Of a stretch of 56,952 nucleotides of DNA, positions 4,651-43,661 are shown one piece after another. The translations under genes and the position numbers were made by a program. The notes below the pieces were generated by a model. That model saw only the letters and a program-made list of their open reading frames with translations, did not search any database and had not been told where the DNA came from. The stretch's first letter is position 1. Each line of letters starts with the position of its first letter. This DNA comes from Candidatus Neomarinimicrobiota bacterium (lineage in GTDB: Bacteria > Fidelibacterota > UBA8477 > JABMPR01): positions 1-56,952 of the forward strand of contig JAYEKW010000245.1 in assembly GCA_034716895.1 (NCBI GenBank), read 5' to 3'.

Positions 4651-4675
4651 TTGATACATAAATGTGTCATACATC
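4651..4675. promoter_or_regulatory. candidate GntR/FCD operator, copy 2
   Basis: The second copy of the 15-base element is at 4661-4675. Within it ATGTGTCATACAT (4662-4674) is a near-palindrome around the GT-NNN-AC core, with two mismatched pairs. The preceding TTGATACAT (4651-4659) mirrors it imperfectly. It lies 28 bases before the TonB receptor start codon. Confidence 0.4.
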
Positions 4676-4703
4676 ATTCACATTATTTATGGAGAGTCTC
4701 TTC

Positions 4704-7634
4704 ATGACTTGGTTACGTAAGTGGCAATCATCTTCTTTGATCGTACTGTTGTTGGTCGCACAGGCCACTTTTGGCGGACAGGGTGGAAAAATATCTGGAC
4801 AGGTCAGCGATGCTCAATCTGGAGATCCATTGCCGGGTGCGAATGTAATGATCACCCATCGTTGGATCGACGGCCAGGAAATCCCTCTGGATAACCTGAT
4901 TGGAACAGCGACTGATGTGGATGGTCACTATTACCTCTTAAATATTTATCCCGGTAGCTATTCACTAAGAGTCGATTTTATTGGAATGTCGAGTCGGGTG
5001 GTCACCGATGTTGCGATTATGGTCGATATGACAACCTTTATAGATATTGCTATGGAAAACAATGCGCTCGAAGGTGAAGCGGTTATCGTTGAATCTCAAC
5101 GAAAGAATACGGTCCAAACAGATCTCACAGCTACCAAACAAGTCTACCAAATATCTGATGTTCAAAGTATTGCCGGTGTTAATGATATCGGTGATATCAT
5201 TAACCTGCAAGCCGATGTGGTTGATGATCATTTTCGGGGAGGGCGAGTCGGCGAGGCAAGTTATCTCCTCGGTGGTGCAACCATCGTTAATCCTTTGACC
5301 AATGGCAGGGCTTTTAAGCCAATCGTCACCGGTCTGGAACAGGTTGAAGTCTATACCAGTGGCTTTAGCTCTGAATATGGAAATGCCCAGTCTGGTGTGA
5401 TCAATATGATTACTAAAGAAGGCCGGGAAAAATGGGAATCACGCCTGGAGGTTTCCATAGTTGCACCGTACTATAAGGTCTGGGAGGAATTTCTGGATGC
5501 CGATAGTAACCAAACACTGAAGCCGGGAAGTCCTTATGATAAAAACAGTCTGGATTTTTATGAAATGTTGACTGATACAGCTGAATGGTTAAAAGAAAAT
5601 CCACAGCAGCCCGGGAGAGTTCTGTATGACCTGGGGTATGGCTTCGGTTCCATCTATTTGCCACCACGTACAACCTGGCCTCCCAATCCGCTCTCCTTTA
5701 GCGATTCGATCCAACTTGCACGTCTGGGACAGGTCGCCTGGCTTCAATCTGTAAGGGATGTGGGGCTCCAGTATGACAATACATTTGACAATCGCTTAGA
5801 CTTTTCAACAGGGGGACCGGTTGCTGAAAATATAAAGATGTTTGTGGCTGTACGGCAGAACAGATCCTATACCCGAATTCCAACCCAGAACCCGGATACT
5901 GATAGACAACTGATGAGTAGCTTGGTCTACAGACCTACTGTATCTGATAAATATAAATTGAGTTGGAATTATAATAAATCTAGTCAAACCTACTTTAGCA
6001 GTTCATATCGATACTGGCTCTTTGATCCAGCCCTGGCAACCTCCCAACGATTATCTAAGTCCACCCAGTTGGGACTGGATTGGAACCATGTGGTTAATCC
6101 TTCAACCTTCTGGCATTTGCGTTTTAGCACCTTAGAACTTATGAATGAGGAATTACTGGCTCTGTTAGCTGAGGATCAATTTGTAACCGATTATATGAAA
6201 TCTTCTAACTGGGTTGACCTGGTTGGCCCCTCTGCCCACCGGGTTGGAAGAATGAACGATGATGGTGGCCGTGATATTACCACTACCTATGCAGCCCAAG
6301 CAGATATTACATCTCAAATTGACCCCGCCAACATGCTCAAAGGTGGCATTCAGTTCAATTACTATGATATTGTTGTGGATAAAATGTATAACCGGTATGG
6401 CGAAGCCGATATCAGGTATTTAAGCTTCACTGGAAATCCCTTTGAAGGCGCTATTTTCGCTCAGGACAAGATGGAATTTGAAGGGATGATCGCCAACGTG
6501 GGAATGCGTCTTGATTTCTATCAGCTCAATACAGACTTCTATGCTGACCTATATGCCCCGCTGCGAAATCCCAACTATGATCCAACTTTACCCTATCTTG
6601 ACCGGGGTCCATATTATTCACGGGACCTGGCAGCAACTGAACATTCCCAAGTATATTGGAAGCTACAGCCTCGTATTGGTGTCAGTTTCCCAGTAGATGA
6701 AACAACAGTATTTCATCTTAATTATGGTACTTTTTCACAGCGTCCAAATTTTAATCAACTCTTCTATAACCAGATCACACAGAATAACGAAATAGAAATT
6801 CTCGGTAATCCCAGATTGAAGCCCGAAGAGACCAATGCCTACGACATGGGTATTGTAAAAGGCTTACCTGTGTTTGGGTTGACCATTGATGTCAGCGCTT
6901 ATTATAAAGATGTTAAAAATCTCATTCAAAGCGCCTACTATTATGATGAGCAACAAGCCATTTACCGAACTTACATCAATCGGGATTATGCAGATATCAA
7001 AGGCTTTCACGTGAATATGGAGCGCAAACACGGGAATCTCCGAGGATATCTACGCTATAATTATGAATCGGCCACCGGCAAGAGCAGCAATGATCTAAAT
7101 GCGCCCGTAACCTTTTTTGAAATAGCAGATCCGGTATACGGTCTTGAACAATTGCCAGATCCTGCTGATGTATATCTGGACTATGACCGAACCCACAAAA
7201 CGGTGATGAATATTCGCTACAAGACACCAAAGAGATTTGGACCGGATATTGCCGGAATTTATCCGCTGGCTCAATTTAGTTTTAGTATGACTAATAAATA
7301 CAGTACAGGAAGGCCCTATACAGATCCTGAAACAGGTCTCCTCTTTACTGAAAGAACTCCCGATGAAGAAGAAGTTCGCCTCCGGATTGAGAAGGGGATG
7401 ACCCTCTCCGGCACGAAAGCAACCATCTATCTGGAAGGCTATAATGTAACCAATCAAGTCGTTTGGGATTACAGTCGCACCTATGATAATCCATATAATA
7501 CACCGAGGCTGAAGACTGATCCAGAGGGTATTTTGACCTACGAACTTTACGAACCTTATGTGAGCAGTCAGGATATATATCTATTGCGCAATCAACCCAG
7601 ACACTGGCGTTTTGGCCTGATAGTGAAATTTTAA
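4704..7634 (+). CDS. TonB-dependent outer-membrane receptor, likely for alginate oligosaccharides
   Basis: A 976-residue protein from ATG 4704, chosen because GGAGAG lies seven bases upstream and a signal peptide (hydrophobic S-L-I-V-L-L-L-V-A-Q-A-T-F-G) follows directly. Next come a carboxypeptidase-regulatory-like domain (about residues 27-110, G-Q-V-S-D-A...G-D-P-L-P-G-A-N-V), a plug domain (about 130-240, with G-L-E-Q-V-E-V-Y-T-S-G-F-S-S-E-Y-G-N-A-Q-S-G-V-I-N) and a long beta-barrel ending in the aromatic residue expected of outer-membrane proteins (V-K-F). It imports substrates by TonB energy. As the first gene of a run that includes PL6, PL17 and KDG genes, it most likely takes up alginate oligomers. 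No SusD gene follows, unlike SusCD systems. Confidence 0.93.
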   Translation: MTWLRKWQSSSLIVLLLVAQATFGGQGGKISGQVSDAQSGDPLPGANVMITHRWIDGQEIPLDNLIGTATDVDGHYYLLNIYPGSYSLRVDFIGMSSRVVTDVAIMVDMTTFIDIAMENNALEGEAVIVESQRKNTVQTDLTATKQVYQISDVQSIAGVNDIGDIINLQADVVDDHFRGGRVGEASYLLGGATIVNPLTNGRAFKPIVTGLEQVEVYTSGFSSEYGNAQSGVINMITKEGREKWESRLEVSIVAPYYKVWEEFLDADSNQTLKPGSPYDKNSLDFYEMLTDTAEWLKENPQQPGRVLYDLGYGFGSIYLPPRTTWPPNPLSFSDSIQLARLGQVAWLQSVRDVGLQYDNTFDNRLDFSTGGPVAENIKMFVAVRQNRSYTRIPTQNPDTDRQLMSSLVYRPTVSDKYKLSWNYNKSSQTYFSSSYRYWLFDPALATSQRLSKSTQLGLDWNHVVNPSTFWHLRFSTLELMNEELLALLAEDQFVTDYMKSSNWVDLVGPSAHRVGRMNDDGGRDITTTYAAQADITSQIDPANMLKGGIQFNYYDIVVDKMYNRYGEADIRYLSFTGNPFEGAIFAQDKMEFEGMIANVGMRLDFYQLNTDFYADLYAPLRNPNYDPTLPYLDRGPYYSRDLAATEHSQVYWKLQPRIGVSFPVDETTVFHLNYGTFSQRPNFNQLFYNQITQNNEIEILGNPRLKPEETNAYDMGIVKGLPVFGLTIDVSAYYKDVKNLIQSAYYYDEQQAIYRTYINRDYADIKGFHVNMERKHGNLRGYLRYNYESATGKSSNDLNAPVTFFEIADPVYGLEQLPDPADVYLDYDRTHKTVMNIRYKTPKRFGPDIAGIYPLAQFSFSMTNKYSTGRPYTDPETGLLFTERTPDEEEVRLRIEKGMTLSGTKATIYLEGYNVTNQVVWDYSRTYDNPYNTPRLKTDPEGILTYELYEPYVSSQDIYLLRNQPRHWRFGLIVKF

Positions 7635-7653
7635 GAATGGACCTGGAGAATAT

Positions 7654-9957
7654 ATGAGAACCACAACACGCATTTTCATTCTTATCCTTTCCCTAGGATT
7701 AACGCAGACAATATTGGGACAAATACGAGAATACAGAATCCATGATCGGGGCATGCTCCACAATACTGTATTTAACACAGGAGAGATTGGACGCGCCTGG
7801 CAAACTGGAGATGCAGGAAATTACACCAGCGTTCCTCTTTTTGAGTGGCCCCCTTACTCGAAAACAGTGGTAGGTGGGATTGAATATGATGGACAGCATA
7901 ATATTTTAGGTGCTGGTGTTTATATCGGCGCCAATCTGGAGGGTTCTCCTGGAGAGACAAATCGTTTGTTTGCGCTATGCGGGGCGGTTGGGGCCAGTTC
8001 ACCTGAAGTCGCCATCGGTCGATGGTCCTTTCCCCTCTACATGGAGGAGATTGAGAACTTTCCCCTGAATGCAGACGGTCATTTAAATGAAGATTATAAT
8101 CCCAATGAAGCCGAGGAAATAATCACTGCAGCCTGGGCATCATCCACAGGTATTACCGTAACGCGTACATCCCGCCAGTGGAGCTATCCGGATTATGATG
8201 ATTTTATTATCTATGAATATGAATTTGAATACACTGGCGATACAGATGGTAATCCTGCGACCATTGAAATGACTGATGATCTTAAAGATGTGATGATTGC
8301 TGTAAACTATGGATTCGCTCCCTCGATGTATGGCTATCAGAGACAATATCTTGAATGGAAATACTCAGGGGGGCTTTACCGGGGCGATCAAAACAATTTT
8401 TGGGATAGTGACTGGTGGCTATCCTTCAATATGAATTTACGGGTTAACATTTCTGATGCTTCTCTGCCTGCCAAGCCGGAACCAGATCCAGAACGCTTCA
8501 TGGAGCTTGCCCAATCAGGAATAAATGGGGGTGCCTTAGGCTCACCACAAGCACCAGGTTATGCCATCCTGTTCTATGATACCACTCATCTTGCCTATGT
8601 AGTTCCTGAATCACTTGATAGCCTGGGCTTGAATGATTCAGAAACACAAGCCGCTCTCAGGACGTCCACATTACTCTCCCTTGATGACTATGACCAGGTT
8701 GATATTTATCGGGAAAATGATGATGGGTCCTTTACCTGGTACTATGAATTAGATGAAAAACATCATATTAAACAGCCCTGGTCCAACAAAGTTTCTACTG
8801 GAAATACCAATAGTCCCAAAATGATGTACGAAAAAGATGCCTTTAATCCCAATACACGCTGGAGTGGGGTTTATTCACCAAACAGCGTAACTTGGGCAGA
8901 GCGAAAGGGCGACCACTGGTTGGGACGCGCGGCATATCCCTATCGTCAAAGTGCTGATGCCGGGATGAAATTGATAGTCTTCGGACCTTACAGCCTCAAG
9001 ATAGGGGACAAGCTCGAGCTCAGTTACGCAGAAGTTGTTGGCTATGGCGCTGAGCCGGATAAAAGAATCGAAGGGGGAAATGTGACGCAGCAGTGGATGA
9101 GAACTCCAGACTGGAATAGACGATATGTCATAGATGGTCAAGTCATGACCGAAGCCTACCTCGATGATTTTGGATATCCTGATTATGTGAATTCAACGAC
9201 AGTTCGGACGGTTACTGAAGTGACTGAAAAAGCTTTTGAAGCCTATATGGGGCAGACACCAACTGTCCCGGTTTGGCCAGAGGCAAATGGAAAAGATGGC
9301 AGCTATCAGATTCCACCACCGTTCCCTGCTCCCATCTTAACCATAAAGAACAATGAATTGGCAACGGTGAAGTTGACCTGGTATCCTGATCAGGAAGATT
9401 TTGTGCATCCCCTTTTAAGTAGCACGTTAGAAAGATACTATATCTGGAGATCCGTCGCTGGAATGGGGCCCTGGACCCTGCTGGACAGTTTGGAAGTGGG
9501 AACCCCGATGAATATCGATGGTAAGTACGAGTACATCGATGTCGAGGAGAATTTTAAAGTTGGTGAGTACCGCTATTATGCCGTGACTTCTGTGAGTGAT
9601 GCCGGTCAGCAAAGTGGGAAAACGAATATAGGACGCTTTGGAAAGAATATTGCTGCCGTTGAAGAACTTACCGATGTCTATGTCGTTCCCAATCCCTATC
9701 GTGCTGATATTGGATCATTTCACGGATTAGATGCTGGCAAAATTGGTTTTTATGGTCTGCCCGAAGTGTGCACCATTCAAATCTATAGTTATGCCATGCA
9801 ATTAGTGCGGACCATTGAGCATGCGGAACCTGCCTATTCCAACCTGAATCACCAGACGACCCGAGTGGGGCAGGAGATGGCTTCTGGAATTTATTTCTAT
9901 GTTGTTACCACACCTGAGGGTGACAGCTCTAACGGTAAATTTGTGATCATTAAGTAG
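7654..9957 (+). CDS. secreted protein of unknown family in the SusD position, T9SS C-terminal domain
   Basis: A 767-residue protein with a signal peptide (first 23 residues, cleavage near L-G-Q). The main part (about 25-540) is rich in W, Y and D and I do not recognise it. A fibronectin type III-like segment follows (about 560-665: L-T-W-Y-P-D, Y-Y-I-W-R-S, Y-R-Y-Y-A-V-T-S-V). The last 95 residues (V-P-N-P-Y ... G-I-Y-F-Y-V ... K-F-V-I-I-K) are a type IX secretion C-terminal domain. It starts 19 bases after the TonB receptor gene, where SusD would be in Bacteroidetes. It may capture glycan at the surface for the receptor. That is inference from position and from its aromatic-rich composition. 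Confidence 0.75.
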   Translation: MRTTTRIFILILSLGLTQTILGQIREYRIHDRGMLHNTVFNTGEIGRAWQTGDAGNYTSVPLFEWPPYSKTVVGGIEYDGQHNILGAGVYIGANLEGSPGETNRLFALCGAVGASSPEVAIGRWSFPLYMEEIENFPLNADGHLNEDYNPNEAEEIITAAWASSTGITVTRTSRQWSYPDYDDFIIYEYEFEYTGDTDGNPATIEMTDDLKDVMIAVNYGFAPSMYGYQRQYLEWKYSGGLYRGDQNNFWDSDWWLSFNMNLRVNISDASLPAKPEPDPERFMELAQSGINGGALGSPQAPGYAILFYDTTHLAYVVPESLDSLGLNDSETQAALRTSTLLSLDDYDQVDIYRENDDGSFTWYYELDEKHHIKQPWSNKVSTGNTNSPKMMYEKDAFNPNTRWSGVYSPNSVTWAERKGDHWLGRAAYPYRQSADAGMKLIVFGPYSLKIGDKLELSYAEVVGYGAEPDKRIEGGNVTQQWMRTPDWNRRYVIDGQVMTEAYLDDFGYPDYVNSTTVRTVTEVTEKAFEAYMGQTPTVPVWPEANGKDGSYQIPPPFPAPILTIKNNELATVKLTWYPDQEDFVHPLLSSTLERYYIWRSVAGMGPWTLLDSLEVGTPMNIDGKYEYIDVEENFKVGEYRYYAVTSVSDAGQQSGKTNIGRFGKNIAAVEELTDVYVVPNPYRADIGSFHGLDAGKIGFYGLPEVCTIQIYSYAMQLVRTIEHAEPAYSNLNHQTTRVGQEMASGIYFYVVTTPEGDSSNGKFVIIK

Positions 9958-9967
9958 GGGTGCGGGT

Positions 9968-10936
9968 ATGATTAAAAAATCAATTCTGGCCTGGATCATG
10001 TTTTCCCTGATTTCTTTTCAAAGTTTTGCATTTGAAAAGGTGGGTGTAACATCTTTTCAGTTTTTAAAAATTTCCATGGATCCCACAAGCGCTGCAATGG
10101 GAGGAGCCTTCGCTGCCGTATCAAGAGGGACCGAAAGTATGTATAACAATCCTGCTGCGTTGGTCAAACAACGAGGATTTGGTACCTTTCTATCTCAATT
10201 GGATTATGTATTTGACGCGAATCACAGTACTGGCGCTGCTTCCTGGGGGTTTGGTGACTGGGCGATTGGCGTGTATGGCATTTCTGTAGACTATGGATCA
10301 ATCCAGGTCACAGATATTGACCACCTGTTCTATGCAGACAACGGAAGCTTTAACCCGGGGCTAACTGGGGAAAAGCTATCTCTCGGGGCCACAGATATAG
10401 GGATTGGGTTTAGCCAGGAGTTGACAAATAAATTCTCATATGGCATTATCAGCAAATATATACGCGAAGATTTCTCGATTATGAGCAGCTCGCTGGTTGC
10501 ATGGGATATTGGTGTTTTATATGACTCAGGATTCAGAAGTATCGTGTTGGGAGCAACCTTGAGAAATTTTGGTCCTCAAGTTAAATATATCACCCAAAGC
10601 TATCCTTTGCCCCAAACCATGAATCTTGGTGTTTCAGCAGAATTGCTTGGGGCAGGTACGCCTCTATTCAAAGAAAGTGACTCCCATACTTTGCTCATTT
10701 CCGCAGACTTGCTTCAGCCCCGAGACTATGGGCAACAGTATAATATTGGGGCGGAGTATGCTTTTCGTGATCTCTTGTTTGTCAGGAGTGGCTATCGGTT
10801 GAATTATGATACAGAAGGTTTGAACATTGGCCTGGGATTTAAACTGAAAAGTGTGGCCTTGAACTATAGTTACAGTGACTACGGAGAACAGCTACCAGGT
10901 GTTCACCGTGTTAGCATTGGCTTTATAAATATTTAG
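9968..10936 (+). CDS. PorV/PorQ-like outer-membrane protein
   Basis: A 322-residue protein with a signal peptide ending in S-F-A. The segment D-P-T-S-A-A-M-G-G-A-F-A-A-V, then Y-N-N-P-A-A-L, is the hallmark start of the PorV/PorQ (UPF0164) family of FadL-like outer-membrane barrels. PorV carries type IX substrates to the attachment complex. Here it sits in one operon with at least four proteins having type IX C-terminal domains, so a dedicated shuttle for these enzymes is plausible. It follows the upstream gene by 10 bases with a G-rich ribosome binding site. Barrel strands with alternating residues continue to the C-terminus. Confidence 0.82.
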   Translation: MIKKSILAWIMFSLISFQSFAFEKVGVTSFQFLKISMDPTSAAMGGAFAAVSRGTESMYNNPAALVKQRGFGTFLSQLDYVFDANHSTGAASWGFGDWAIGVYGISVDYGSIQVTDIDHLFYADNGSFNPGLTGEKLSLGATDIGIGFSQELTNKFSYGIISKYIREDFSIMSSSLVAWDIGVLYDSGFRSIVLGATLRNFGPQVKYITQSYPLPQTMNLGVSAELLGAGTPLFKESDSHTLLISADLLQPRDYGQQYNIGAEYAFRDLLFVRSGYRLNYDTEGLNIGLGFKLKSVALNYSYSDYGEQLPGVHRVSIGFINI

Positions 10937-14014: not shown

Positions 14015-17000
14015 ATGAAACGATTGCTACTGGCTATTTGTCTTGTGACATTAGCATTTGGAACCCTGCAAGCTACGGTGATTCCAGTAGAAAATACTGT
14101 AAACAACTCGCTGTCAGATGCTATTGCTGCTGCGACTGCAGGTGACATCATTGAGTTGATTACAGATGGAGATTATCTGTCAACATCACAGATCGTTATT
14201 GATAAGGATCTGACGATCCGCGGTCTGGAAACACTGGCCAATAAACCAGTATTGAAGTATATCGGTACTTCAACAGGTGCCTATATGTTTAAGGGCGTTG
14301 GTTCATCCCATATCGAATTCCACAATCTGGAACTCGATGGTGACGGAACTGCTGAAGGTGGTGCCGCTCTAGCAAAATATGCTTTCAGATTAGACAATGG
14401 TGATCCTACTATGACCATGGACCTGTTCATGGACAATTGCCATGTCCATGATTTCAATGAGAAGTTCATCAAACCTTATGGAAACACTGGACTTGACTCC
14501 CTGGTTATTACCAACACCGTTTTCCATGATGGTGCCAGAGAAGGTATCGTTCTTTATTCAGGTTCTACCAGTGACCCAGCTGTAGTTTTTGCTTATGCTG
14601 AAATCTCTAATTGTACCTTTTATGCCATAGAACGTGAAGCCATTAAGGGTGATACCTATGTTGATGGTGTGGTTCGTATAGATCGCATCACTGCTTACGA
14701 TTGTGGAAGCACTCAGAATAAACCCATGATTTATTTCCGGGATATGACGGATGTTATCGTAACAAACAGCATTTTTGCAAATAATACCAATCCTGATGCA
14801 GGTGAGGAGTTTGCTGAATTTGACTCTGACTTGAGTTTATTTAACCATAATTGTGTCTGGGATATTGTGAATTCAGATGTTAGTGCTGCAACCGTGAGTG
14901 ATACCATCCATACGGATCCTCAGTTCACCGACGCAGCCAATGGTGATTTCTCCATTCCTGAAGCATCTGTATTGTATTTCTTTGCTGATGATGGCGGCGC
15001 TATTGGTGATTCACGTTGGGCTCCTGTAATTGAAGCGACCGTGATTCAGATTAGCAATGCTGCACCAAATGCCCTGGCTGACGCTATTTCAGCAGCCGCT
15101 GAAGGTGATATCATTGAGCTGATCTCTGATGGTGTCTATACCAATGATTCTCAGATTGTTCTAGATCAAGACATAACCATTCGTGGTTCATCTAATATCC
15201 CCAATCGACCGGTTGTAAAATATAATGGTACATCCACTGGTGCCTATATGTTCAAGGGGGTTGGTTCACCACATTTGGTTATTAAGAATCTGGAGCTCGA
15301 TGGTGACGGAACTGCTGAAGGTGGTGCCGCTCTAGCAAAATATGCTTTCAGATTAGACAATGGTGATCCTACTATGACCATGGACCTGTTCATGGACAAT
15401 TGCCATGTCCATGATTTCAATGAGAAGTTCATCAAACCTTATGGAAACACTGGACTTGACTCCCTGGTTATTACCAACACCGTTTTCCATGATGGTGCCA
15501 GAGAAGGTATCGTTCTTTATTCAGGTTCTACCAGTGACCCAGCTGTAGTTTTTGCTTATGCTGAAATCTCTAATTGTACCTTTTATGCCATAGAACGTGA
15601 AGCCATTAAGGGTGATACCTATGTTGATGGTGTGGTTCGTATAGATCGCATCACTGCTTACGATTGTGGAAGCACTCAGAATAAACCCATGATTTATTTC
15701 CGGGATATGACGGATGTTATCGTAACAAACAGCATTTTTGCAAATAATACCAATCCTGATGCAGGTGAGGAGTTTGCTGAATTTGACTCTGACTTGAGTT
15801 TATTTAACCATAATTGTGTCTGGGATATTGTGAATTCAGATGTTAGTGCTGCAACCGTGAGTGATACCATCCATACGGATCCTCAGTTCACCGACGCAGC
15901 CAATGGTGATTTCTCTATTCCTGAAGCATCTGTATTGTATTTCTTTGCTGATGATGGCGGCGCTATTGGTGACTCACGTTGGGCACCCCCCATCGGACTC
16001 TATGCTCTAAATGTTTTCACAGATGGTTTGGGCTCTGTAGCTCTAGATCCTCCTGGTGGTGTTTATACTGAGAATACGGTAGTTACGCTGACAGCTACAC
16101 CGGATGATTATTATGCATTCGAAGGCTGGAGCCCCAATGTACCAGCTTTTCCACCTAGCAACCCAGTTGTTTCAATTACAGTAACTGAGACCATGGATAT
16201 CACAGCCTACTTTGTTCCGACTATCACGGAATACTTTATCGAGATATCCAGTATTGGCCTGGGACATGTTGATGCAACCCACACACCTCAGTTCCCGGTA
16301 GATGGTTACTATGAAGGGGATAACCTTGCCTTAGTGGCTGTTCCCGATACCACAACCTGGGAATTTGCCTATTGGGTCAACGCTGCAATGGACAGTATTG
16401 ATGTCGGTGATATCGATTATACCATCGATGCCGATACCAGCTTTATTGCTTATTTCCGTAGCACCATTGATCAGGTTACCCTGACCACCAGTTTTACGGG
16501 GATGGGGTCTATAGCAATCAGTCCTACTCCAGTAGCCGGATTTACAAGCTACGATACAGGTACTGAGATTACCTTGAATGCCATTGCTCCACTAGGTTGG
16601 GAGTTCACTGGATGGACAGGAGATCTAACTTCAACTGATAATCCACTGGTCTTTACAATCAATGCGGATATGGCTTTGGCAGCGAGTTTTGCTGAGATTA
16701 GCCATCCAGATGGCGTTCTTGCAGTTGATCTCAGCTGGGAAATTCTGGATGCAGTTGAATATGCAGCCAATAATAGTCAGGTAACAACGCTTCTATTGAC
16801 CAGTGTTGGTCCATATGTGCCCTCTGAAGACCTGCGCGTTAATGGTAAAATGCCACCAATTACCCTCCGCAACCATCTGAACATATATGGGGCCGATACC
16901 CTGGCCATGCGACCCTTGATCCAGGGCTATACCTCATCAACAGGTGGAACCAGCTCTGAAGGTTTTTTCCGATTTAGAGATGGGGGTAGTCTTACTCTTA

Positions 17001-18565
17001 AAGATCTTCGCGTAGATGGATTAATGGACGGTGCAGTTGTTCCTTCAAAATACATCTTTCGCGCAGATGATTCTGCAGTGACTGAATTTCATTGTTCTTT
17101 GAATGCCTATAACGTTGATTTTAAATCAACAGTAGAGGTCTTCTATAAGAATTATGGAACTGCCTATGTAGATACCATGCGATTTGTTGACTGTGTGGTT
17201 TCGGATATTGGCAAGGAGTTAATATACTTGAATACTGTAGGACAGGCTGATTATGTGGAGCTTACCAACAGCACGTTCCATAATATTGGTCGTGAGATTA
17301 TTTACCTCAAGAATATGAACCCCCAGATCGTTGTTGACCACATAACCATCGACTCTTGTGGTTATGGCTATGGTACTGAAGGTGATAAATTCGGTGCTTT
17401 CCGGATCGAAAATACAACGAATGTCAGTTTTACCAACTCGATCATCAATGATATGCCAAATACTATCTATGATTATGCCATGAGAATTTCCGGCGAGAAC
17501 TCAATCATTGATAATATTCTAATGAATAATGTGTCCATGAATATCCAGAATAGAGATGGTGCGACGATCGGATCCAATGTCTTCTGGTATGATCCCATGT
17601 TCGCCAACGAAACAGACCATGACTATAATTTGGCTGACGCTTCCGTGGCTTACCACTTAGCCGATGATGGATCAGCTGCTATTGGTGATCTGAAATGGGC
17701 CACATCAGTAAATGTAACACCGTACAACGCACTCAATCTTGATGTTATTGGTGAAGGACTTGTTATGGTAGTTCCTGAACCCATGGCCAAATTCTATGTG
17801 CCTGGTACTTCAGTAACAGCTTCAGCTGCTCCAGATTCATTGGCACAGTTTGATGGTTGGAGTGGTGATGTTGTCTCTCCTGATGCAGCGATTACTTTCA
17901 CAATGGATGCTGACAAATCAATCACAGCAACCTTCAGTGTACCTACCTATACGCTTAACCTGAATGTGAAGATGCAGTATCAAATCCATATTGGGACCTT
18001 CAACCCAGCAACCGATTCACTAGATGTAGCTGGATCATTTAATAACTGGGGTGCCGATGGGACCTGGTTGTATGATGTTGATGGCGATACGGTCTGGTCA
18101 GTTGCCATGGTATTTCCAGCCCTTTCACCAGACCTGAATTTTGAGTATAAATTCAGAATCAATGCCAGTTGGGATGATGCTACAGCTGAGTTCCCATATG
18201 GTGGACCAGCTCGTGTTCTGAATCTCACCAGTGATACTACTATCACGGTATGGTATAATGATCTGGATATGACTACTTCCGTGGATGAACATTTCATGCC
18301 TGAAGTTTATAGCCTATCTCAGAATTTCCCCAACCCCTTCAATCCTAGTACCACTATCTCCTTCGATCTCATCGAAACAGCGGATACTAGATTGATTCTT
18401 TATGATATGCGGGGTCGAGAAGTTGAACACCTTGTGAATCAGAACATGGCTCCAGGGCGCTATACTGTCACCTTTAATGGTGCTGCCCATGCCAGTGGCG
18501 TTTATTTCTATCGCTTGACGAGTGGCACATTCTCAGATGTTAAGAAGTTGATGCTTATAAAATAA
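14015..18565 (+). CDS. giant secreted multi-domain protein: three beta-helices, InlB-type repeats, CBM48-like and T9SS domains
   Basis: A 1516-residue protein with a signal peptide (cleavage after L-Q-A). Domains in order: beta-helix 1 (about 20-335), beta-helix 2 (336-655, nearly identical to helix 1), three divergent InlB B-type repeats (about 660-895; pattern G-x-G-S-V ... F-x-G-W-x-G-D ... A-x-F), beta-helix 3 (896-1230), a fourth InlB-type repeat (1235-1305), a CBM48/AMPK-like domain (about 1310-1415: V-A-G-S-F-N-N-W), and a type IX C-terminal domain (1425-1516; N-F-P-N-P-F-N-P-S-T-T). Each helix ends with D-P-x-F ... I-G-D-x-x-W-A. The role is probably multivalent glycan binding at the surface. 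No catalytic residues were recognised. Confidence 0.75.
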   Translation: MKRLLLAICLVTLAFGTLQATVIPVENTVNNSLSDAIAAATAGDIIELITDGDYLSTSQIVIDKDLTIRGLETLANKPVLKYIGTSTGAYMFKGVGSSHIEFHNLELDGDGTAEGGAALAKYAFRLDNGDPTMTMDLFMDNCHVHDFNEKFIKPYGNTGLDSLVITNTVFHDGAREGIVLYSGSTSDPAVVFAYAEISNCTFYAIEREAIKGDTYVDGVVRIDRITAYDCGSTQNKPMIYFRDMTDVIVTNSIFANNTNPDAGEEFAEFDSDLSLFNHNCVWDIVNSDVSAATVSDTIHTDPQFTDAANGDFSIPEASVLYFFADDGGAIGDSRWAPVIEATVIQISNAAPNALADAISAAAEGDIIELISDGVYTNDSQIVLDQDITIRGSSNIPNRPVVKYNGTSTGAYMFKGVGSPHLVIKNLELDGDGTAEGGAALAKYAFRLDNGDPTMTMDLFMDNCHVHDFNEKFIKPYGNTGLDSLVITNTVFHDGAREGIVLYSGSTSDPAVVFAYAEISNCTFYAIEREAIKGDTYVDGVVRIDRITAYDCGSTQNKPMIYFRDMTDVIVTNSIFANNTNPDAGEEFAEFDSDLSLFNHNCVWDIVNSDVSAATVSDTIHTDPQFTDAANGDFSIPEASVLYFFADDGGAIGDSRWAPPIGLYALNVFTDGLGSVALDPPGGVYTENTVVTLTATPDDYYAFEGWSPNVPAFPPSNPVVSITVTETMDITAYFVPTITEYFIEISSIGLGHVDATHTPQFPVDGYYEGDNLALVAVPDTTTWEFAYWVNAAMDSIDVGDIDYTIDADTSFIAYFRSTIDQVTLTTSFTGMGSIAISPTPVAGFTSYDTGTEITLNAIAPLGWEFTGWTGDLTSTDNPLVFTINADMALAASFAEISHPDGVLAVDLSWEILDAVEYAANNSQVTTLLLTSVGPYVPSEDLRVNGKMPPITLRNHLNIYGADTLAMRPLIQGYTSSTGGTSSEGFFRFRDGGSLTLKDLRVDGLMDGAVVPSKYIFRADDSAVTEFHCSLNAYNVDFKSTVEVFYKNYGTAYVDTMRFVDCVVSDIGKELIYLNTVGQADYVELTNSTFHNIGREIIYLKNMNPQIVVDHITIDSCGYGYGTEGDKFGAFRIENTTNVSFTNSIINDMPNTIYDYAMRISGENSIIDNILMNNVSMNIQNRDGATIGSNVFWYDPMFANETDHDYNLADASVAYHLADDGSAAIGDLKWATSVNVTPYNALNLDVIGEGLVMVVPEPMAKFYVPGTSVTASAAPDSLAQFDGWSGDVVSPDAAITFTMDADKSITATFSVPTYTLNLNVKMQYQIHIGTFNPATDSLDVAGSFNNWGADGTWLYDVDGDTVWSVAMVFPALSPDLNFEYKFRINASWDDATAEFPYGGPARVLNLTSDTTITVWYNDLDMTTSVDEHFMPEVYSLSQNFPNPFNPSTTISFDLIETADTRLILYDMRGREVEHLVNQNMAPGRYTVTFNGAAHASGVYFYRLTSGTFSDVKKLMLIK
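14333..14952 (+). repeat. perfect 620-bp direct repeat, copy 1 (coding)
   Basis: Compared base by base, 14333-14952 equals 15296-15915 with no differences; the offset is 963 bases (321 codons). After one C/T difference (14953 versus 15916) identity runs on for 56 bases. It encodes residues 107-313 of the large beta-helix protein. Flanking sequence on both sides differs clearly between the two copies. Confidence 0.97.
15296..15915 (+). repeat. perfect 620-bp direct repeat, copy 2 (coding)
   Basis: Second copy, encoding residues 428-634 of the same protein. Homology at the protein level extends beyond the identical block on both sides. Confidence 0.97.
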
Positions 18566-18613: not shown

Positions 18614-21328
18614 ATGAAAATACTGATCTATATATTATCCTTTTTAAGTGCGGTTCAACTACTGGCAGACAATACGCTGGTCTATACAGCGCTTGAAATT
18701 CATAATATCATGGATGAATTGCTTCCAGGTGATACTCTGACCCTGAATAATGGGGTTTGGAATGATCAACGGATCTCTATTCACGCAGAGGGAAGCGCAA
18801 CAGAACCAATTGTGTTAATTGCAGAAACTCCCGGCCAGGTGATCTTGACCGGGTTTTCTACACTCGCTATTTCTGGTTCGTGGATTGAAGTAAACGGACT
18901 TAATTTTAGAGATGGTTATTCTACCGGATCTGGCGTTATTGAATTTCGACGGTATGGTGACAGGGCTAATTATTGTCGTGTAACCAATACCACCATATTC
19001 AATTTTAACCCATCTAGTAACACAGCGAATTATAAATGGGTTTCCATGTATGGTCAACACAATCAGGTGGATCATTGTTATTTCGCTGGAAAATCTCATG
19101 ATGGGGCTACTTTTGTGGTCTGGCTGACAGAACCACAGGATCGTGAGAATCAGCATATCATCGAGTACAACCATTTTGGCTATCGACCACCCCTGGGTTT
19201 TAACGGTGGCGAGACTATTAGGATCGGGACCAGCACGCACTCAATGTCGAATTCTCAAACTATTGTCAGACATAACTTATTTCAACAATGCAATGGTGAG
19301 ATCGAGATTATTTCCAACAAGTCCTGCGAAAATATTTTTTTCAGTAACACCTTTCGAGACAATGAAGGTTGTCTCACCCTCAGACACGGAAACCGCTGTC
19401 GCATCGAGGGAAATTTCTTTTTTGGCGCTGGCAATACTGAAGCTGGTGGTGTTCGTATCATTGGAACAGACCACGAAATTGTAAATAATTATTTTGAAGG
19501 GTTACCTGGAACCGGTTATCGATCAGCAATCACATTTGTTATGGGTGTCGTGGACTCACCCTTAAATCGTTACTTCCAGGTTGAAAATACAACAGTAGTC
19601 CACAATACACTGGTGAATTGCTCCCAATCATTTTTAATCGGCTATGGTTCCTCAGATGATCAGACCCTGCCACCCATTAACTGCACCATTGCTAATAATG
19701 CTGTAGATGCCGGGAATTATGATGTCTTTCACTTTGGTGCTTCAGAAGGAAACCCTCAGGGGTTTTCATATTCACAAAATATGGTTATGGGACATGCTTT
19801 AGGTGTGACGGATACCAGTGCTGGAATTATTTGGCTTGATCCTGAGTTGAGCCTTTCAGAAGATGATCTATATCGACCCGCCAATATCAGTCCTTTGCTG
19901 GGTGCCGCCTCTGAGTTGAACATCGTCATGACCACCGATATGGATGGTCAGCTTCGAACTGCATCTACCGATATTGGGGCAGATCAAGTATCGTTTGATC
20001 CTATTGTTTATAGACCCCTGTCGGAAACGGATGTTGGTCCGAGCTGGATTTCAGTTCCAAGTGGTAACCAATTCGTTGAAGCTGGTATGAACACATTGCT
20101 AGATGCAGTTGAAACGGCAATACCAGGTGATACTTTATTTCTTGTTGGGGTGGACTACCAGCTTTCTGAACCCATTGTGATAGACAAAGAGGTTTTGATA
20201 CTCCCGGGATCTGACTTAGAGCTAACCCCAGTTATCAGCTTAGCCAGTGACGTATTATCCATGTCAACGCTCTTTGACATTCAAGGGAATGGTGAGCTGA
20301 AAATAACCGGAGTGACCATTGATGGTGGTGGAAATAGTGGAAATATAGCTCAACGTGCATTCCATGCAAATTACAACGATGCAAACCTGCTCTACGCACT
20401 CGATATTCAAAATACAATATTTCAGAATTTTGGGACCACAGGTGACTATGCTTCAGTTCTGGAAGGTTCAGTAGGTAGTTTTGCTGATTCCATCAGTTTT
20501 AAAAACTGCATATTCAAGCATACCAAGGGGACTTTGTTTATCCTGGATAATAATGATGATGATACTGGCTTGTATAGTGTCCAATATCTTCTTTTTGAGG
20601 ATTGTACATTTTGGGATATCCCCCATGGCGTTCTCAGTATTTATGGCGGCGATAGCAATCCGTACTCTGTTGGCCCAGTTGTCCTGATCGATCAATGTAC
20701 GTTCCATGAATGTGGCCTTGATGGTTTACCCGTAATCAATGCACGGGACGTAGATGTTACCACCATCGCAAATAGTATTTTTAGCACTTGTAGTCCCGAT
20801 GCCGCAATCGTTGAACTATATAACTGGTCCCAAATATATAACTGCGATATTTATGAGAGTGGGACGGTTTCCCTTCACTCTACTGCAAGCATTGGAGAGG
20901 GGATGCTCGAAAGTGACCCGCAGTATATGGATGCTACTCAGGGCTTATTCAATTTGATCGAAGGCTCTCTGCTCTATGAAAATAACGGGACAAATGGGAT
21001 TCCCTACGGGGATAGTCAATGGCATGACCCACTTCTCATCGTAGGGGTTGTCGAAAATCAACCTCACATCTTGCAACCTAGCTATAATTATCCAAATCCC
21101 TTTAATGCATTCACAACATTTTATGTGGAATTCACTTCACCTGGTCCTTTGAAATTAGAGATATTTGATCTGGCAGGCAGGCAAGTCGTTGCCAAGGACC
21201 TAGGGGTTTATTCTGCGGGAGGGCATGATATAAATATGAATTTGGAGTATTTGGCTTCGGGTGTATACGTTTGGAAAATAATGCAGGGTAATATTTATCA
21301 CTTGGCAAAAATGACAGTAATTAAATGA
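18614..21328 (+). CDS. two-helix PL6 alginate lyase with T9SS domain
   Basis: A 904-residue protein with a signal peptide (cleavage near L-L-A-D). Residues 20-460 form the catalytic PL6 beta-helix. N197, E229, E231, K236 and R257 reproduce the spacing of the calcium ligands and catalytic Lys/Arg reported for AlyGC (N181, E213, E215, K220, R241), including L-T-L-R-H-G-N around the Arg. Residues about 480-800 form a second beta-helix, as in AlyGC, closing with D-P-Q-Y ... G-D-S-Q-W. The last 85 residues are a type IX C-terminal domain (N-Y-P-N-P-F-N). It cuts alginate by beta-elimination at the cell surface. The gene overlaps the next by ATGA. Its ribosome binding site lies in a hairpin. Confidence 0.93.
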   Translation: MKILIYILSFLSAVQLLADNTLVYTALEIHNIMDELLPGDTLTLNNGVWNDQRISIHAEGSATEPIVLIAETPGQVILTGFSTLAISGSWIEVNGLNFRDGYSTGSGVIEFRRYGDRANYCRVTNTTIFNFNPSSNTANYKWVSMYGQHNQVDHCYFAGKSHDGATFVVWLTEPQDRENQHIIEYNHFGYRPPLGFNGGETIRIGTSTHSMSNSQTIVRHNLFQQCNGEIEIISNKSCENIFFSNTFRDNEGCLTLRHGNRCRIEGNFFFGAGNTEAGGVRIIGTDHEIVNNYFEGLPGTGYRSAITFVMGVVDSPLNRYFQVENTTVVHNTLVNCSQSFLIGYGSSDDQTLPPINCTIANNAVDAGNYDVFHFGASEGNPQGFSYSQNMVMGHALGVTDTSAGIIWLDPELSLSEDDLYRPANISPLLGAASELNIVMTTDMDGQLRTASTDIGADQVSFDPIVYRPLSETDVGPSWISVPSGNQFVEAGMNTLLDAVETAIPGDTLFLVGVDYQLSEPIVIDKEVLILPGSDLELTPVISLASDVLSMSTLFDIQGNGELKITGVTIDGGGNSGNIAQRAFHANYNDANLLYALDIQNTIFQNFGTTGDYASVLEGSVGSFADSISFKNCIFKHTKGTLFILDNNDDDTGLYSVQYLLFEDCTFWDIPHGVLSIYGGDSNPYSVGPVVLIDQCTFHECGLDGLPVINARDVDVTTIANSIFSTCSPDAAIVELYNWSQIYNCDIYESGTVSLHSTASIGEGMLESDPQYMDATQGLFNLIEGSLLYENNGTNGIPYGDSQWHDPLLIVGVVENQPHILQPSYNYPNPFNAFTTFYVEFTSPGPLKLEIFDLAGRQVVAKDLGVYSAGGHDINMNLEYLASGVYVWKIMQGNIYHLAKMTVIK

Positions 21329-22602
21329 GAATTGTTATGAATAGACCCTTGGTAGCGTTAGCTCAGATTTTGTTTCTGGGATTATTACTGACCACATGCT
21401 CAACAACTCAGAGTTTAAAAGTGGAGCTGAGTCACACTGGGATGTTTGAGCTAAGTATCCTGGAAACGAACAAACAGGAGATCTTAAAAGGCAGTCATAT
21501 GCTGATGCCTGCCTATGACCAGTTGAAATTGGATGCTTTGGTCGCCCTGGATCTTGTTGCTCCAAGCGTGATGGATAAGGTATCCATTCCACCCAGCGGC
21601 GATAAGCACGACTACACGAGTATGGGGCCATATTGGTGGCCAAATCCTGATACACCTGATGGTTTACCCTATGTCCGTAAAGATGGTCAGGTCAATCCGG
21701 AGCGAAATAAATACGACAAAGTGTCAGGTTCGGAAATGTCATATGCTGTCAAGGCGTTGGCTCTTATGTATTATTTCAGCGAAGATGAGATTTATGCAAA
21801 ACAAGCAGCCCATCTACTCCGTACCTGGTTTATTTCCCTGGACACACGTATGAATCCCAATCTAAATTATGGTCAATTTGTTCCTGGTCGTTCAGTTGGC
21901 CGTTCAGTTGGTATTATTGAATCTAGAGATTTTGTATTTTTGACAAGTTTTGAGCCATTGTTGCAGTCATCTGAACATTGGACAAAAGCTGACCACCACT
22001 CCTTTGTGACCTGGATGGATGAATTTCGGGTCTGGTTAGTTAAAAGCGACTTAGGCCAGCAGGAGTTTAAGCGTGCCAATAACCACGGTTCCTGGTACGA
22101 TTATCAAGTGCTGGCATTAAGTCATTTTTGCGATAGAACAGAAGAAACAACTATTTTGGCTGAAAGTGTTCTTGAAAGACGGCTGGAACATCAAATTGAG
22201 CCAACGGGTGAACAACTTGAAGAGTTAGCCCGTACAAAATCTTTCAACTACTCTGTGTTCAACATAGAGGCATTAACGCATGTAGCCATTTATACTCAGG
22301 ATTATGGCATTGATCTATATCAGACAAAAGAAGAAAACCCATTATTAGTGCAGGCCATTGATTTTCTTTTGCCCTATATTGTTGGAGATAAACCCTGGCC
22401 ATATAAACAGATATCAAGCATAGCACATTCACAAGAAAAGATGATATTTATCCTTGCTCGTGCGTATGCGCATTACAAAGTCCCTGAATACATGAGTGCA
22501 ATAGAAATTTTAAAAAATAGATTTCCTCAGTCACGTTATAACCTTACCACAAGGCAAGGAAACATCACGACGATAAATCAGGATTTGCTGGGAGAAAAAT
22601 AG
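21325..22602 (+). CDS. PF05426 alginate-lyase-family lipoprotein (PL38/PL5-like)
   Basis: A 425-residue protein. The N-terminus has a lipoprotein signal (L-L-L-T-T-C, Cys25), so it is probably anchored in a membrane facing the periplasm or the surface. Y-W-W-P-N-P and the (alpha/alpha)-barrel-like helices, with N253-H254 (N-N-H-G), R303 and Y309, match the Asn-His-Arg-Tyr catalytic set of PF05426 lyases (AlgL of PL5 has the same order). The opening P-Y-W-W-P-N-P-D-T ... Y-V-R-K-D-G-Q resembles family PL38, whose members act on alginate or glucuronan. It overlaps the PL6 gene by ATGA (an ATG at 21337 is an alternative start) and is followed after two bases by the GntR gene. Its paralogue at 40404 is in the second cluster. 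Confidence 0.85.
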   Translation: MRIVMNRPLVALAQILFLGLLLTTCSTTQSLKVELSHTGMFELSILETNKQEILKGSHMLMPAYDQLKLDALVALDLVAPSVMDKVSIPPSGDKHDYTSMGPYWWPNPDTPDGLPYVRKDGQVNPERNKYDKVSGSEMSYAVKALALMYYFSEDEIYAKQAAHLLRTWFISLDTRMNPNLNYGQFVPGRSVGRSVGIIESRDFVFLTSFEPLLQSSEHWTKADHHSFVTWMDEFRVWLVKSDLGQQEFKRANNHGSWYDYQVLALSHFCDRTEETTILAESVLERRLEHQIEPTGEQLEELARTKSFNYSVFNIEALTHVAIYTQDYGIDLYQTKEENPLLVQAIDFLLPYIVGDKPWPYKQISSIAHSQEKMIFILARAYAHYKVPEYMSAIEILKNRFPQSRYNLTTRQGNITTINQDLLGEK

Positions 22603-22604
22603 GT

Positions 22605-23321
22605 ATGCATACATATTCAAAAGTGGGTAGCACAGAAACCCTTAGCAGCAAAATTCAAAATCAGATTGAGCAATCAATCCTACAGAAGAAATATTTACCT
22701 GGTGATAAGCTACCGACTGAAAAAGAATTGTGCATCATGTTTGGTGTCAGTCGGACCGCACTTCGAGAAGCACTCCAAATGTTGAGTATTCAGGGACTTA
22801 TTAGTATTCGAAAGGGGAGTGGGATCTACGTTACGGAGTACAATTCCGATCACGCTGTTAGACCCATGAGCCGTTACCTGGCAATGAATCTGAATGCTGA
22901 GTTGATCATACAGGTCATTGAAGTTCGAAAAGCATTTGAACCTCAGATTGCCTGGATAGCAGCCAGGAATCGGGATGAGGCAGATGTGAACGGTTTAGAA
23001 ATAAATCTGGAAGAGCTGCAAAAAAGTGATCAATCCAATTCCGAGCGACAAGGTGAGATTGATCAAAGTTTTCATATGCAAATTTGTGAAGCCACCAAGA
23101 ATCCGATTATTCCCCTGCAAATGGAGCCAATATTTCGGTTGATGCCAAGGATTCGAACTATTGTTTATAGTACTGTGGACACAGCCTTAAGTGAAGCAGT
23201 AACATTTCATGAAAAAATATTTGTGGCCATTCGTGATCAGAATTCAGAGGCTGCCCGTGATGCTATGATGGGGCACTTGGCTGTTGCAGAAGAACATTCC
23301 TACAAGATATTGAATCAATAA
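22605..23321 (+). CDS. GntR/FCD-family transcriptional regulator of alginate catabolism
   Basis: A 238-residue protein. Residues 12-80 are a GntR winged helix (L-P-T-E-K-E-L-C-I-M-F-G-V-S-R-T-A-L-R-E-A-L, then G-L-I-S-I-R-K-G-S-G-I-Y-V). Residues 95-235 are the helical FCD ligand domain with the metal-site pattern (D-Q-S-F-H, H-E-K-I, and a final H-L-A-V-A-E-E-H). Related regulators sense uronates or KDG/KDPG-type metabolites and are usually repressors. Its position in the middle of the alginate operon, before the monomer-catabolism genes, and the three GTATGAC-type sites (4542, 4661, 23367) suggest it controls both promoters. The effector is unknown. Confidence 0.9.
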   Translation: MHTYSKVGSTETLSSKIQNQIEQSILQKKYLPGDKLPTEKELCIMFGVSRTALREALQMLSIQGLISIRKGSGIYVTEYNSDHAVRPMSRYLAMNLNAELIIQVIEVRKAFEPQIAWIAARNRDEADVNGLEINLEELQKSDQSNSERQGEIDQSFHMQICEATKNPIIPLQMEPIFRLMPRIRTIVYSTVDTALSEAVTFHEKIFVAIRDQNSEAARDAMMGHLAVAEEHSYKILNQ

Positions 23322-23366
23322 AGAGCGGATGATTAAAACCAACCGCGATCTTACAGGCCAAATTAA

Positions 23367-23383
23367 TTAGTATGACATATTAT
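23367..23383. promoter_or_regulatory. candidate GntR operator and -10 box before the DEH reductase gene
   Basis: GTATGAC at 23370-23376, continuing as ATATT, shares 11 of 15 bases with the two elements before the TonB receptor gene, in opposite orientation. TATTAT at 23378-23383 could be a -10 box. No good -35 is seen, so an internal promoter in this 91-base gap is possible but not secure. Confidence 0.35.
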
Positions 23384-23412
23384 AAAAAGATACAAAACTG
23401 AAAGGGTTGGAC

Positions 23413-24177
23413 ATGAAAATCGATTTAACAGGTAAAACAGCCTTGATTACAGGTAGCATCCAGGGAATTGGATTCGAAACAGCGAAAACACTGGCTTTAG
23501 CAGGTGCAAAGGTAGTGCTCAATAATCATATGGATGCTGATGGTCTCCAAACAAAAGTGGATGAGATCATTGCAGCTGGTGGTGAGGCAAAAGGGGTCAT
23601 CGCAGATTGTTCAAATAAAGCGGATGTCCAAAAATTAATTGATGAAACCGTGGCTTTTGGCGGATCATTAGACATTCTGGTGAACAACGCTGGTGGACTT
23701 ATTAAACGTGTTCCCATAGCAGATTTTGATGAGGGTCATTTTGATACTATCATGAACGTAAATGTCAAAACTGCATTTATGGTTACGTCCTTCGCTATTC
23801 CTCATCTTATTAAAAGTACAGCAGGTCGCATTATTAACTTCTCCAGCCAGGCTGCCCACGATGGTGGTGGGCCTGGTGCCGCAGCCTATGCCGCTTCAAA
23901 GGGTGCTATTTGGACCATGACCAAAGGTGTAATCAAGGAAGTGTCTTCGCATGGTGTGACTGTAAATGCTATATCTCCTGGATTCATTGCTGGTACGGCA
24001 TTTCATAACACCTTTACTGCTCCCGAAGTTCATGAAAAGGTCACTGGGATGGTTCCTCTAGGTCGTTTAGGCGAGCCTGTTGATGTGGCAAATGTCGTAT
24101 TGTTTCTTGCTTCTGGTCTAGGTGCTTATGTCAATGGGCAGAGTATCCAGGTAAATGGTGGTTTATACATGCCCTAA
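23413..24177 (+). CDS. SDR-family DEH reductase (to KDG)
   Basis: A 254-residue short-chain dehydrogenase from ATG 23413, six bases after AAAGGG. It has the Rossmann motif T-G-S-I-Q-G-I-G, the N-N-A-G motif, the catalytic Ser and the Y-A-A-S-K of the active site, and ends in V-N-G-G-L-Y-M-P, an ending shared with reductases of 4-deoxy-L-erythro-5-hexoseulose uronate (DEH) from alginate degraders. Reaction: DEH + NAD(P)H to 2-keto-3-deoxygluconate (KDG). It sits between the regulator and the PL17 lyase that makes the monomer. Cofactor preference cannot be settled by eye. Confidence 0.82.
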   Translation: MKIDLTGKTALITGSIQGIGFETAKTLALAGAKVVLNNHMDADGLQTKVDEIIAAGGEAKGVIADCSNKADVQKLIDETVAFGGSLDILVNNAGGLIKRVPIADFDEGHFDTIMNVNVKTAFMVTSFAIPHLIKSTAGRIINFSSQAAHDGGGPGAAAYAASKGAIWTMTKGVIKEVSSHGVTVNAISPGFIAGTAFHNTFTAPEVHEKVTGMVPLGRLGEPVDVANVVLFLASGLGAYVNGQSIQVNGGLYMP

Positions 24178-24194
24178 TGTGATTTGAGGACCCA

Positions 24195-26393: not shown

Positions 26394-26415
26394 TGCATAA
26401 GACTTGGAGCTGAAA

Positions 26416-27711
26416 ATGAATGCGAAACAAGAAAAAAAGATTAAAGGTCTCAGGTGGTGGATTGTGACACTGGTTGCAGTGGCCACCATGATCAATTATA
26501 TCGATCGTTTCGCTATGGCCATCATGTGGCCGGAAATGAGTGAGGAATTGGGCATTGGTAACGCAGGGTACGCCAAGATAATGAGTATGTTTCTGGTGGC
26601 CTATGGTGTGAGCCAGATGCTTTCGGGTAAGCTGTATGATATTGTTGGTACCAGACTTGGATTTGTGATTTCCATTGTGGTTTGGAGTTTGTCAGCAGCC
26701 CTTCATGGCTTGGCACGTTCGGTTGTTTCTTTTAGTCTTGTCCGCTTCCTGTTAGGGGTTGGTGAGGCGGGTAACTGGCCAGGAGCCACCAAGTCCAATG
26801 CTGAATGGTTCCCCGCTAAGGAAAGAGCCTTTGCTCAGGGTATTTTCAGTACGGGAACATCGGCTGGATCCATTGTAGCTCCGCCTCTGATTGCTATTCT
26901 GTATTTGTCAATAGGGTGGAAAATCACTTTCATGTTACTCGGTTTGCTTGGAATGTTATGGATCATCCCCTGGTGGTATTTGAATCGGGCTTTACCAAAA
27001 GACCATCCGTGGATCACTGACGAAGAAAAACAGCATATCCTGGGTGACCAAGCCTTAAGTGATACACCTGCCTCCACGGAGAGAGTTCCTGGCTGGGGTG
27101 AGTTGCTCACCTATAAACAGAGTTATTCCGTAATTATTTCAAGAATATTTCTGGATCCGGTCTGGTGGCTGTTTGTAGTATGGCTACCCATATATTTGCA
27201 CAACAAATTTGGTTTCAATGTCAAAGAAATCGGCATGTATGCCTGGATGCCCTATGTGGGGGCAGCGCTGGGATCTCTATTTGGCGGTTATCTGAGTGGC
27301 TATTTCATGGAAAAAGGCTGGACCGTAAATAAAGCCCGGAAATGGGCCATCACCCTGGGAGCCATCATCATGTTCCCCAGTTTGATTATGACTGCTTTTG
27401 CCAGCACCTCAGCTGCCGCTATTGCATTGATCACCATCATCTTATTCGGTTTCCAAATATCAATGAATAATATTCAGACCCTACCCAGCGATTTCTTTGG
27501 GGGAGGTACCGTTGGTTCCCTGGCAGGTATGGGGGGGTTGAGTGCTGTTCTGGGAGTCATTGTTGTTACGAACCTGGTACCAGTCATTGTTGACACATCA
27601 GGATACACATTGGTATTTCTTATGGGTGCAGGTCTTGTACCAGCAGCCTTGCTTTTCGTCTTCTTGTTCAGCGGGGAGATCAAAAAAGTACAGCTGAAGG
27701 AACCCAAATAA
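26416..27711 (+). CDS. MFS hexuronate/DEH importer (ExuT-like)
   Basis: A 431-residue inner-membrane protein from ATG 26416, with GGAG six bases upstream (a TTG at 26404 is less likely). Twelve hydrophobic segments can be drawn. The start M-I-N-Y-I-D-R-F-A-M-A and the region G-V-G-E-A-G-N-W-P-G-A-T-K are typical of the anion:cation symporter branch of MFS that carries hexuronates and related sugar acids. Its place between PL17 and KdgF points to unsaturated uronate (DEH) import. Its stop overlaps the start of kdgF (TAATG). Confidence 0.88.
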   Translation: MNAKQEKKIKGLRWWIVTLVAVATMINYIDRFAMAIMWPEMSEELGIGNAGYAKIMSMFLVAYGVSQMLSGKLYDIVGTRLGFVISIVVWSLSAALHGLARSVVSFSLVRFLLGVGEAGNWPGATKSNAEWFPAKERAFAQGIFSTGTSAGSIVAPPLIAILYLSIGWKITFMLLGLLGMLWIIPWWYLNRALPKDHPWITDEEKQHILGDQALSDTPASTERVPGWGELLTYKQSYSVIISRIFLDPVWWLFVVWLPIYLHNKFGFNVKEIGMYAWMPYVGAALGSLFGGYLSGYFMEKGWTVNKARKWAITLGAIIMFPSLIMTAFASTSAAAIALITIILFGFQISMNNIQTLPSDFFGGGTVGSLAGMGGLSAVLGVIVVTNLVPVIVDTSGYTLVFLMGAGLVPAALLFVFLFSGEIKKVQLKEPK

Positions 27712-28705: not shown

Positions 28706-28714
28706 GAGCTAGTT

Positions 28715-31587: not shown

Positions 31588-31625
31588 ATAATTTTCAGCC
31601 CATCATTCGATTGGGGAATCTGTCT

Positions 31626-33926: not shown

Positions 33927-33941
33927 TATCTACCCAATGGG

Positions 33942-33975
33942 AATACTATCGGGCGGTTTTTCCCCGATTGGTATT
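33942..33975 (+). terminator. imperfect hairpin between the lyase and LacI genes
   Basis: AATAC (33942-33946) and TCGGG (33949-33953) pair with CCCGA (33963-33967) and GTATT (33971-33975), interrupted by a small internal loop. The apical loop contains five T. It starts 16 bases after the stop of the lyase gene. Weak candidate terminator. Confidence 0.35.
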
Positions 33976-34032
33976 ATCCGTATACCCCTATAAAAAATAA
34001 AATTCCTAGAATACTTGCGAATCGTGAAGCAC

Positions 34033-34062: not shown

Positions 34063-34073
34063 AGGGATCAACC

Positions 34074-35102: not shown

Positions 35103-35153
35103 AAATTCTATAAAAGAGAAATGAAGCTATTAATAAATACAAAGGGGAAAACT

Positions 35154-36827: not shown

Positions 36828-36834
36828 TTTCCTG

Positions 36835-37929: not shown

Positions 37930-37932
37930 ATA

Positions 37933-43659: not shown

Positions 43660-43661
43660 GC

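Follow-up and report, generated by a model that had tools for sequence, protein, structure and literature searches.

Evidence for recurrent intragenic gene conversion between tandem helix units of a T9SS-tailed protein in a Fidelibacterota alginate locus

Two neighboring helix units encoded by a single gene of a Fidelibacterota (Marinimicrobia) bacterium share a block of 677 bp that differs at one position, while the adjacent sequence of the same two units has diverged. This pattern strongly supports gene conversion, or an equivalent recombination, between two older helix copies. We consider it probable that the event belongs to a recurrent process of intragenic conversion, which would act on old tandem units of the type found at the C-terminus of PL6 alginate lyases, within an accessory protein of an alginate locus that would be exported by type IX secretion (T9SS) and may serve to hold alginate. 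The process itself is already known, and we found no earlier account of this instance: neither the protein nor its architecture is described in the literature that we searched on DUF4957/DUF5123, Neomarinimicrobiota polysaccharides, Marinimicrobia alginate lyase, and intragenic conversion, a scope outside of which most subscription papers fall. Beyond the original prediction, which was made from the DNA of this stretch, the present analysis identifies the protein family and the locus, shows recurrence in sister species against an internal control, and documents that unit number differs between species.

The gene lies in the window, by which we mean the whole stretch of 56,952 nucleotides that was analyzed (contig JAYEKW010000245.1), and which belongs to a draft genome of 258 contigs. 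Among named genomes, its closest relatives belong to Candidatus Neomarinimicrobiota, which is assigned to Fidelibacterota in the NCBI taxonomy. Both copies of the block are located inside one open frame, which we refer to as the array gene (Table 1). The front end of its product is predicted to form a tandem array of separately capped beta-helices, each composed of DUF4957 and DUF5123. Within each unit, we call the portion upstream of the block the N-part and the portion that corresponds to the block the C-part. The third helix unit (W_3) shows 34% protein identity to the block, and three Flg_new_2 stretches occur in the whole protein. Homologues of PorU and SprA are present in the genome, both above cut-offs, which together with the type A sorting domain indicates that the array protein is a T9SS substrate. 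Proteins from across the phylum share the C-terminal 200 residues of the array protein. A stretch at 17960-18260 (VAGSFNNWG...), located after the last InlB-type repeat and before the sorting tail, resembles a CBM48/CBM20-type module by eye and has no Pfam match at 1e-3. The gene directly before the array (12496-13998) encodes a T9SS-tailed protein of 500 aa with helix-like repeats (EAIRI, ECIRIY), which by eye is like the third helix of L011 and lacks a Pfam helix match at 1e-3.

Table 1. Features of the array gene and of the surrounding alginate locus, in window coordinates.
Feature	Position	Strand	Basis
TonB-dependent receptor, 767-aa protein, and PorV/PorQ-family protein, upstream of array gene	4662..10936	+	Pfam, NCBIfam
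Multi-helix T9SS-tailed accessory protein gene (array gene), 1,516 aa	14015..18565	+	Single ORF; Pfam DUF4957, DUF5123, InlB-type repeats, Por_Secre_tail
Apparent signal peptide, aa 1-20	14015..14074	+	Read from translation
Helix unit 1, PL6 C-terminal-domain type	14075..15019	+	Alignment boundaries; DUF4957/DUF5123; AlphaFold2 model
Putatively converted block, copy 1 (C-part of unit 1)	14333..15009	+	677 bp, one mismatch, 620 bp exact; dS 0.013
Helix unit 2, PL6 C-terminal-domain type	15020..15982	+	Alignment boundaries; DUF4957/DUF5123
Putatively converted block, copy 2 (C-part of unit 2)	15296..15972	+	677 bp, one mismatch to copy 1
Linker with divergent InlB B-repeats	15983..16693	+	Flg_new_2; limits are those of neighboring units
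Third, older helix unit (W_3), outside the homogenized pair	16694..17698	+	Unit alignment
InlB-type repeat after helix 3	17795..17938	+	Flg_new_2, best stretch 1261-1308
Type IX secretion C-terminal sorting domain	18326..18553	+	PF18962 and TIGR04183, both above cut-offs
PL6-family lyase with its own T9SS tail, next gene	18614..21328	+	PF14592, E 2e-98
Alginate lyase, GntR/FCD regulator, SDR reductase, PL17-like oligoalginate lyase, MFS transporter	21325..27711	+	Pfam
KDPG aldolase and PfkB-family kinase, end of alginate pathway	28058..29740	+	Pfam

The longest exact run at an offset of 963 bp, which is exactly 321 codons, extends over 620 bp (14333-14952 and 15296-15915). A single mismatch follows (C at 14953, T at 15916), which is synonymous because TCC and TCT both encode Ser, and identity then continues for another 56 bp to 15009 and 15972. 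The two identical 620-bp blocks with a period of 963 bp were therefore correctly placed by the original prediction, although the homogenized block is slightly longer. The window contains no other repeat that reaches 25 bp, and no third copy was found in a search of the bacterium's own genome beyond the window. The diverged flanks that had been predicted for the same two domains were also found, with the N-parts of units 1 and 2 showing 65% identity over 233 ungapped bases; at that level of identity, an exact run of 620 bp has a probability of about 1e-115. When synonymous divergence between units 1 and 2 was compared as had been proposed, dS was 1.84 upstream of the block and 0.013 inside, which is a roughly 140-fold drop and supports the predicted recent conversion or recombination of two older helix copies. 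The edges of the low-dS tract at 14333 and 15009 are abrupt and set between otherwise old copies. Units 1 and 2 would thus be old duplicates, of which one had its last 677 bp copied onto the other very recently, through intragenic and presumably RecA-type gene conversion. Modest evidence suggests that unit 2 was copied onto unit 1, because the tail of the block (its last ~35 residues) goes with the last tandem unit of the array gene L023 of a congener (76-78% nucleotide identity) rather than with units 1 and 2 of that gene (58-71%).

The best match of a profile built from 13 helix units was the C-terminal domain of BcAlyPL6, a PL6 lyase (7dmk 431-744, E 6e-30), followed by Patl3640 and then AlyGC. 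An AlphaFold2 model of unit 1 (pLDDT 85.9, pTM 0.87) returned the same PL6 proteins as the best matches among solved structures. In sequence and predicted fold, the units therefore resemble the helix at the C-terminus of PL6 alginate lyases that have two domains (BcAlyPL6, 7dmk; Patl3640, 7o77; AlyGC, 5gkd), and the profile match covers the whole array unit. Unlike those lyases, the array units are free of a PL6 catalytic domain and occur in tandem alongside InlB-type repeats. Of the positions that are invariant across units, eight were counted among the first 86 residues and about 50 among the other 229. The invariant charged or polar residues, such as K130, K133, Y135, N137, E156, R187, E188, K191, and K216 (unit numbering), all fall within the part that appears to have been converted, and the set is not kept in the aligned domain of BcAlyPL6. 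We infer that the charged residues may form an alginate-binding face, such that each unit would present a conserved charged surface in its converted part and hold alginate near the neighboring PL6 lyase. Conversion would then keep the two putative binding units matched and would let a new type of C-part spread to both.

A reading in which the units are themselves active uronate lyases, with conversion keeping two catalytic sites matched, is credible enough to be considered, and we doubt it. In its favor, the fold of the units lies close to that of PL6 and other uronate lyases, and the invariant K, Y, N, E, and R residues are located in the C-part. However, it is the C-terminal domain of PL6 enzymes that the units match and not the catalytic N-terminal domain, and several lyases are already encoded in the locus. 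The possibility that the array protein is a catalytic PL6 lyase in the sense of CAZy was rejected, since the catalytic domain PF14592 does not match the array protein and among the two genes is found in the next one alone.

Relatives of the array gene indicate that the two parts of a unit have separate histories. The congeners G003 and G009 encode array genes (L023 and L025, respectively) with three tandem units each. In trees of the N-parts, units 1 and 2 each group with their orthologue in the other species (support 99-100), and a tree test rejected pairing within genes. In contrast, in trees of the C-parts, units 1 and 2 of the same gene group together (support 100), and pairing by orthology was rejected, at a cost of 217 in log-likelihood. 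Unit 3, which is orthologous in both parts, serves as an internal control. That copies inside the tract group within the gene and copies outside it group with their orthologues indicates that the same conversion, with about the same left boundary, has recurred in sister species, such that C-parts evolve in concert within a gene and N-parts follow species descent. The shift in similarity occurs at about window residue 81-107 in the window gene, L023, and L025. For the window gene, within-gene pairing of the N-parts was not rejected (p 0.18), and the age of its two units consequently rests on the dS contrast and not on orthology. In the array gene of G052 (L024), it is the N-part that is homogenized instead, with 86% nucleotide identity and 69% for the C-part. 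Clear copies of the array are found in 3 of the 19 genomes of the genus, with the window's genome counted. Besides the array genes themselves and distant helices, no silent donor copies were found in the window's own genome or in its congeners.

Comparison of L023 with L025 also points to replacement of the C-part. Protein identity between the two is 86-92% for the N-parts and 95% for the C-part of unit 3, and only 60-61% for the C-parts of units 1 and 2, which indicates that a divergent C-part entered at least one of these genes and is now in both units. When L025:9405-11318 is set against L023:9405-11318, units 1 and 2 of L025 carry a different, divergent type of C-part within surroundings that are 86-95% identical. 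The window C-part is closer to that of L023 (70% protein identity) than to that of L025 (58%), which suggests that L025 represents the lineage whose C-part changed, as if a foreign C-part had arrived there and then spread to units 1 and 2. Every other C-part sampled outside of the L025 gene shows 47-61% identity to the L025 C-part, which places the donor outside the sample.

The number of tandem units also differs between species, with one in G025, two in the window gene, G031, and G052, and three in G003 and G009; the arrays of G056 and G055 are cut by contig ends and were left out of these counts. All of the counted arrays are open frames. The prediction that helix number could vary without breaking the frame therefore held between species, and unequal crossing over, which had been proposed as the cause, may account for it; unit number changes in whole steps of about 320 codons. 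Whole units are gained and lost between species, and the identical C-parts could have arisen through a recent tandem duplication of the entire 963-bp unit, followed by replacement of one N-part with a divergent N-part from elsewhere, which would likewise leave different N-parts beside them. We consider this history unlikely. It takes two events rather than one, the genome has no other copy of the unit to act as donor, and relatives in other families already have two units. Furthermore, both N-parts of L023 and L025 predate the species split whereas the C-parts do not, which makes conversion of the C-part the mode that is demonstrated in the array gene.

It is quite unlikely that the blocks are an assembly artefact, in which a short-read assembler duplicated or smoothed one C-part and the true gene contains either one unit or two units that differ more. 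The genome is a draft, short reads hardly span an exact repeat of 620 bp, and the lone mismatch is only 57 bp from the unique right flank, a position that would fit a loss of differences farther inside the block. However, the two copies of the block have distinct N-parts and right flanks, the reading frame stays open across both units, and independent assemblies of relatives show the same place occupied by two or three units whose C-parts match. These points make a wholly false second copy unlikely. With the draft assembly as the sole source, the exact identity could partly reflect smoothing of a few true differences, which would leave the conclusion unchanged because the copies would still have been made nearly identical recently. 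Assemblers also tend to break contigs at such repeats, as they seemingly did in G056, where the contig (C142) ends inside unit 1 with 25 bp that exactly equal unit 2 before the sequence diverges (the reverse complement of L008, first 25 bases). The rest of that unit 1 was not found in the G056 genome. Because short-read assembly breaks in this way at an exact repeat, recent homogenization in G056 is likely, though not proven, and contig ends at such repeats may mask recent conversions in other draft genomes. Finally, strong purifying selection alone, acting without recombination, has next to no chance of being the explanation: the C-part does have more invariant positions than the N-part across relatives, but the low dS of the block rejects it, as synonymous sites are kept identical along with the others, and C-parts differ by at least 30% of residues between species.

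The C-terminal helix domain of PL6 lyases has no established role, and its occurrence here as a free-standing tandem unit in an alginate locus makes the function of this unsettled domain testable apart from the catalytic domain. Tentatively, the array may be a modular glycan-binding device that converts recurrently, with the C-part as an exchangeable ligand module, open to replacement by a divergent type that conversion would then spread to the neighboring unit. If so, the fit to a polysaccharide would change in both units together, and avidity would be tuned through gain or loss of whole units. The two features that vary from species to species, unit number and C-part type, could be followed in environments richer or poorer in alginate.

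In bacterial surface proteins, tandem repeats within a gene are known to evolve in concert through gene conversion. The array gene shares with these cases that neighboring repeats are closer to each other than orthologous ones and that copy number shifts between lineages. It departs from the general case in that, in three congeners, a sub-part of each domain alone converts, with a similar left boundary, and the N-part provides an internal control. The contrast between a converting and a non-converting part of each domain makes concerted evolution within one gene clearly readable in a phylum that is largely uncultured. In Mycoplasma genitalium, the MgpC adhesin varies by recombination between homologous copies, possibly through gene conversion (PMC2169797), and is likewise encoded by a surface protein gene that is changed in this way; the donors of MgpC are partial copies elsewhere in the genome, whereas the exchange in the array gene would be between neighbors in one gene.

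Based on gene content, with lyases, uptake, regulation, and KDPG-pathway genes side by side, the array gene sits in an alginate-utilization locus. The PL17-like oligoalginate lyase is a heparinase-fold protein with alginate-lyase and Alg17C_C matches in Pfam. In L023, L024, and L025, the array gene is followed by a protein that aligns to the PL6 protein of the window with 44-58% identity. Alginate-utilization loci are known in Bacteroidota, and the locus of Bacteroides eggerthii resembles that of the window in its TonB receptor, PL6 and PL17-like lyases, GntR/FadR-type regulator, MFS transporter, and reductase (PMC11381880). The window's locus also contains the end of the KDPG pathway and, unlike the loci of Bacteroidota such as B. 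eggerthii, the T9SS-tailed multi-helix protein and a PorV/PorQ-family gene; in further contrast to those loci, none of the proteins scanned in it matched the SusD family. Further along the window, a second set of uronate-polymer genes (31536-48626) comprises heparinase II/III-like and pectate-lyase-like proteins, a LacI regulator, GH88, GH2, another alginate-lyase-family protein, DUF4861, UxaC, and part of a TRAP transporter. Near the start of the window, positions 610-2157 encode a Fic/DOC-family protein of 515 aa.
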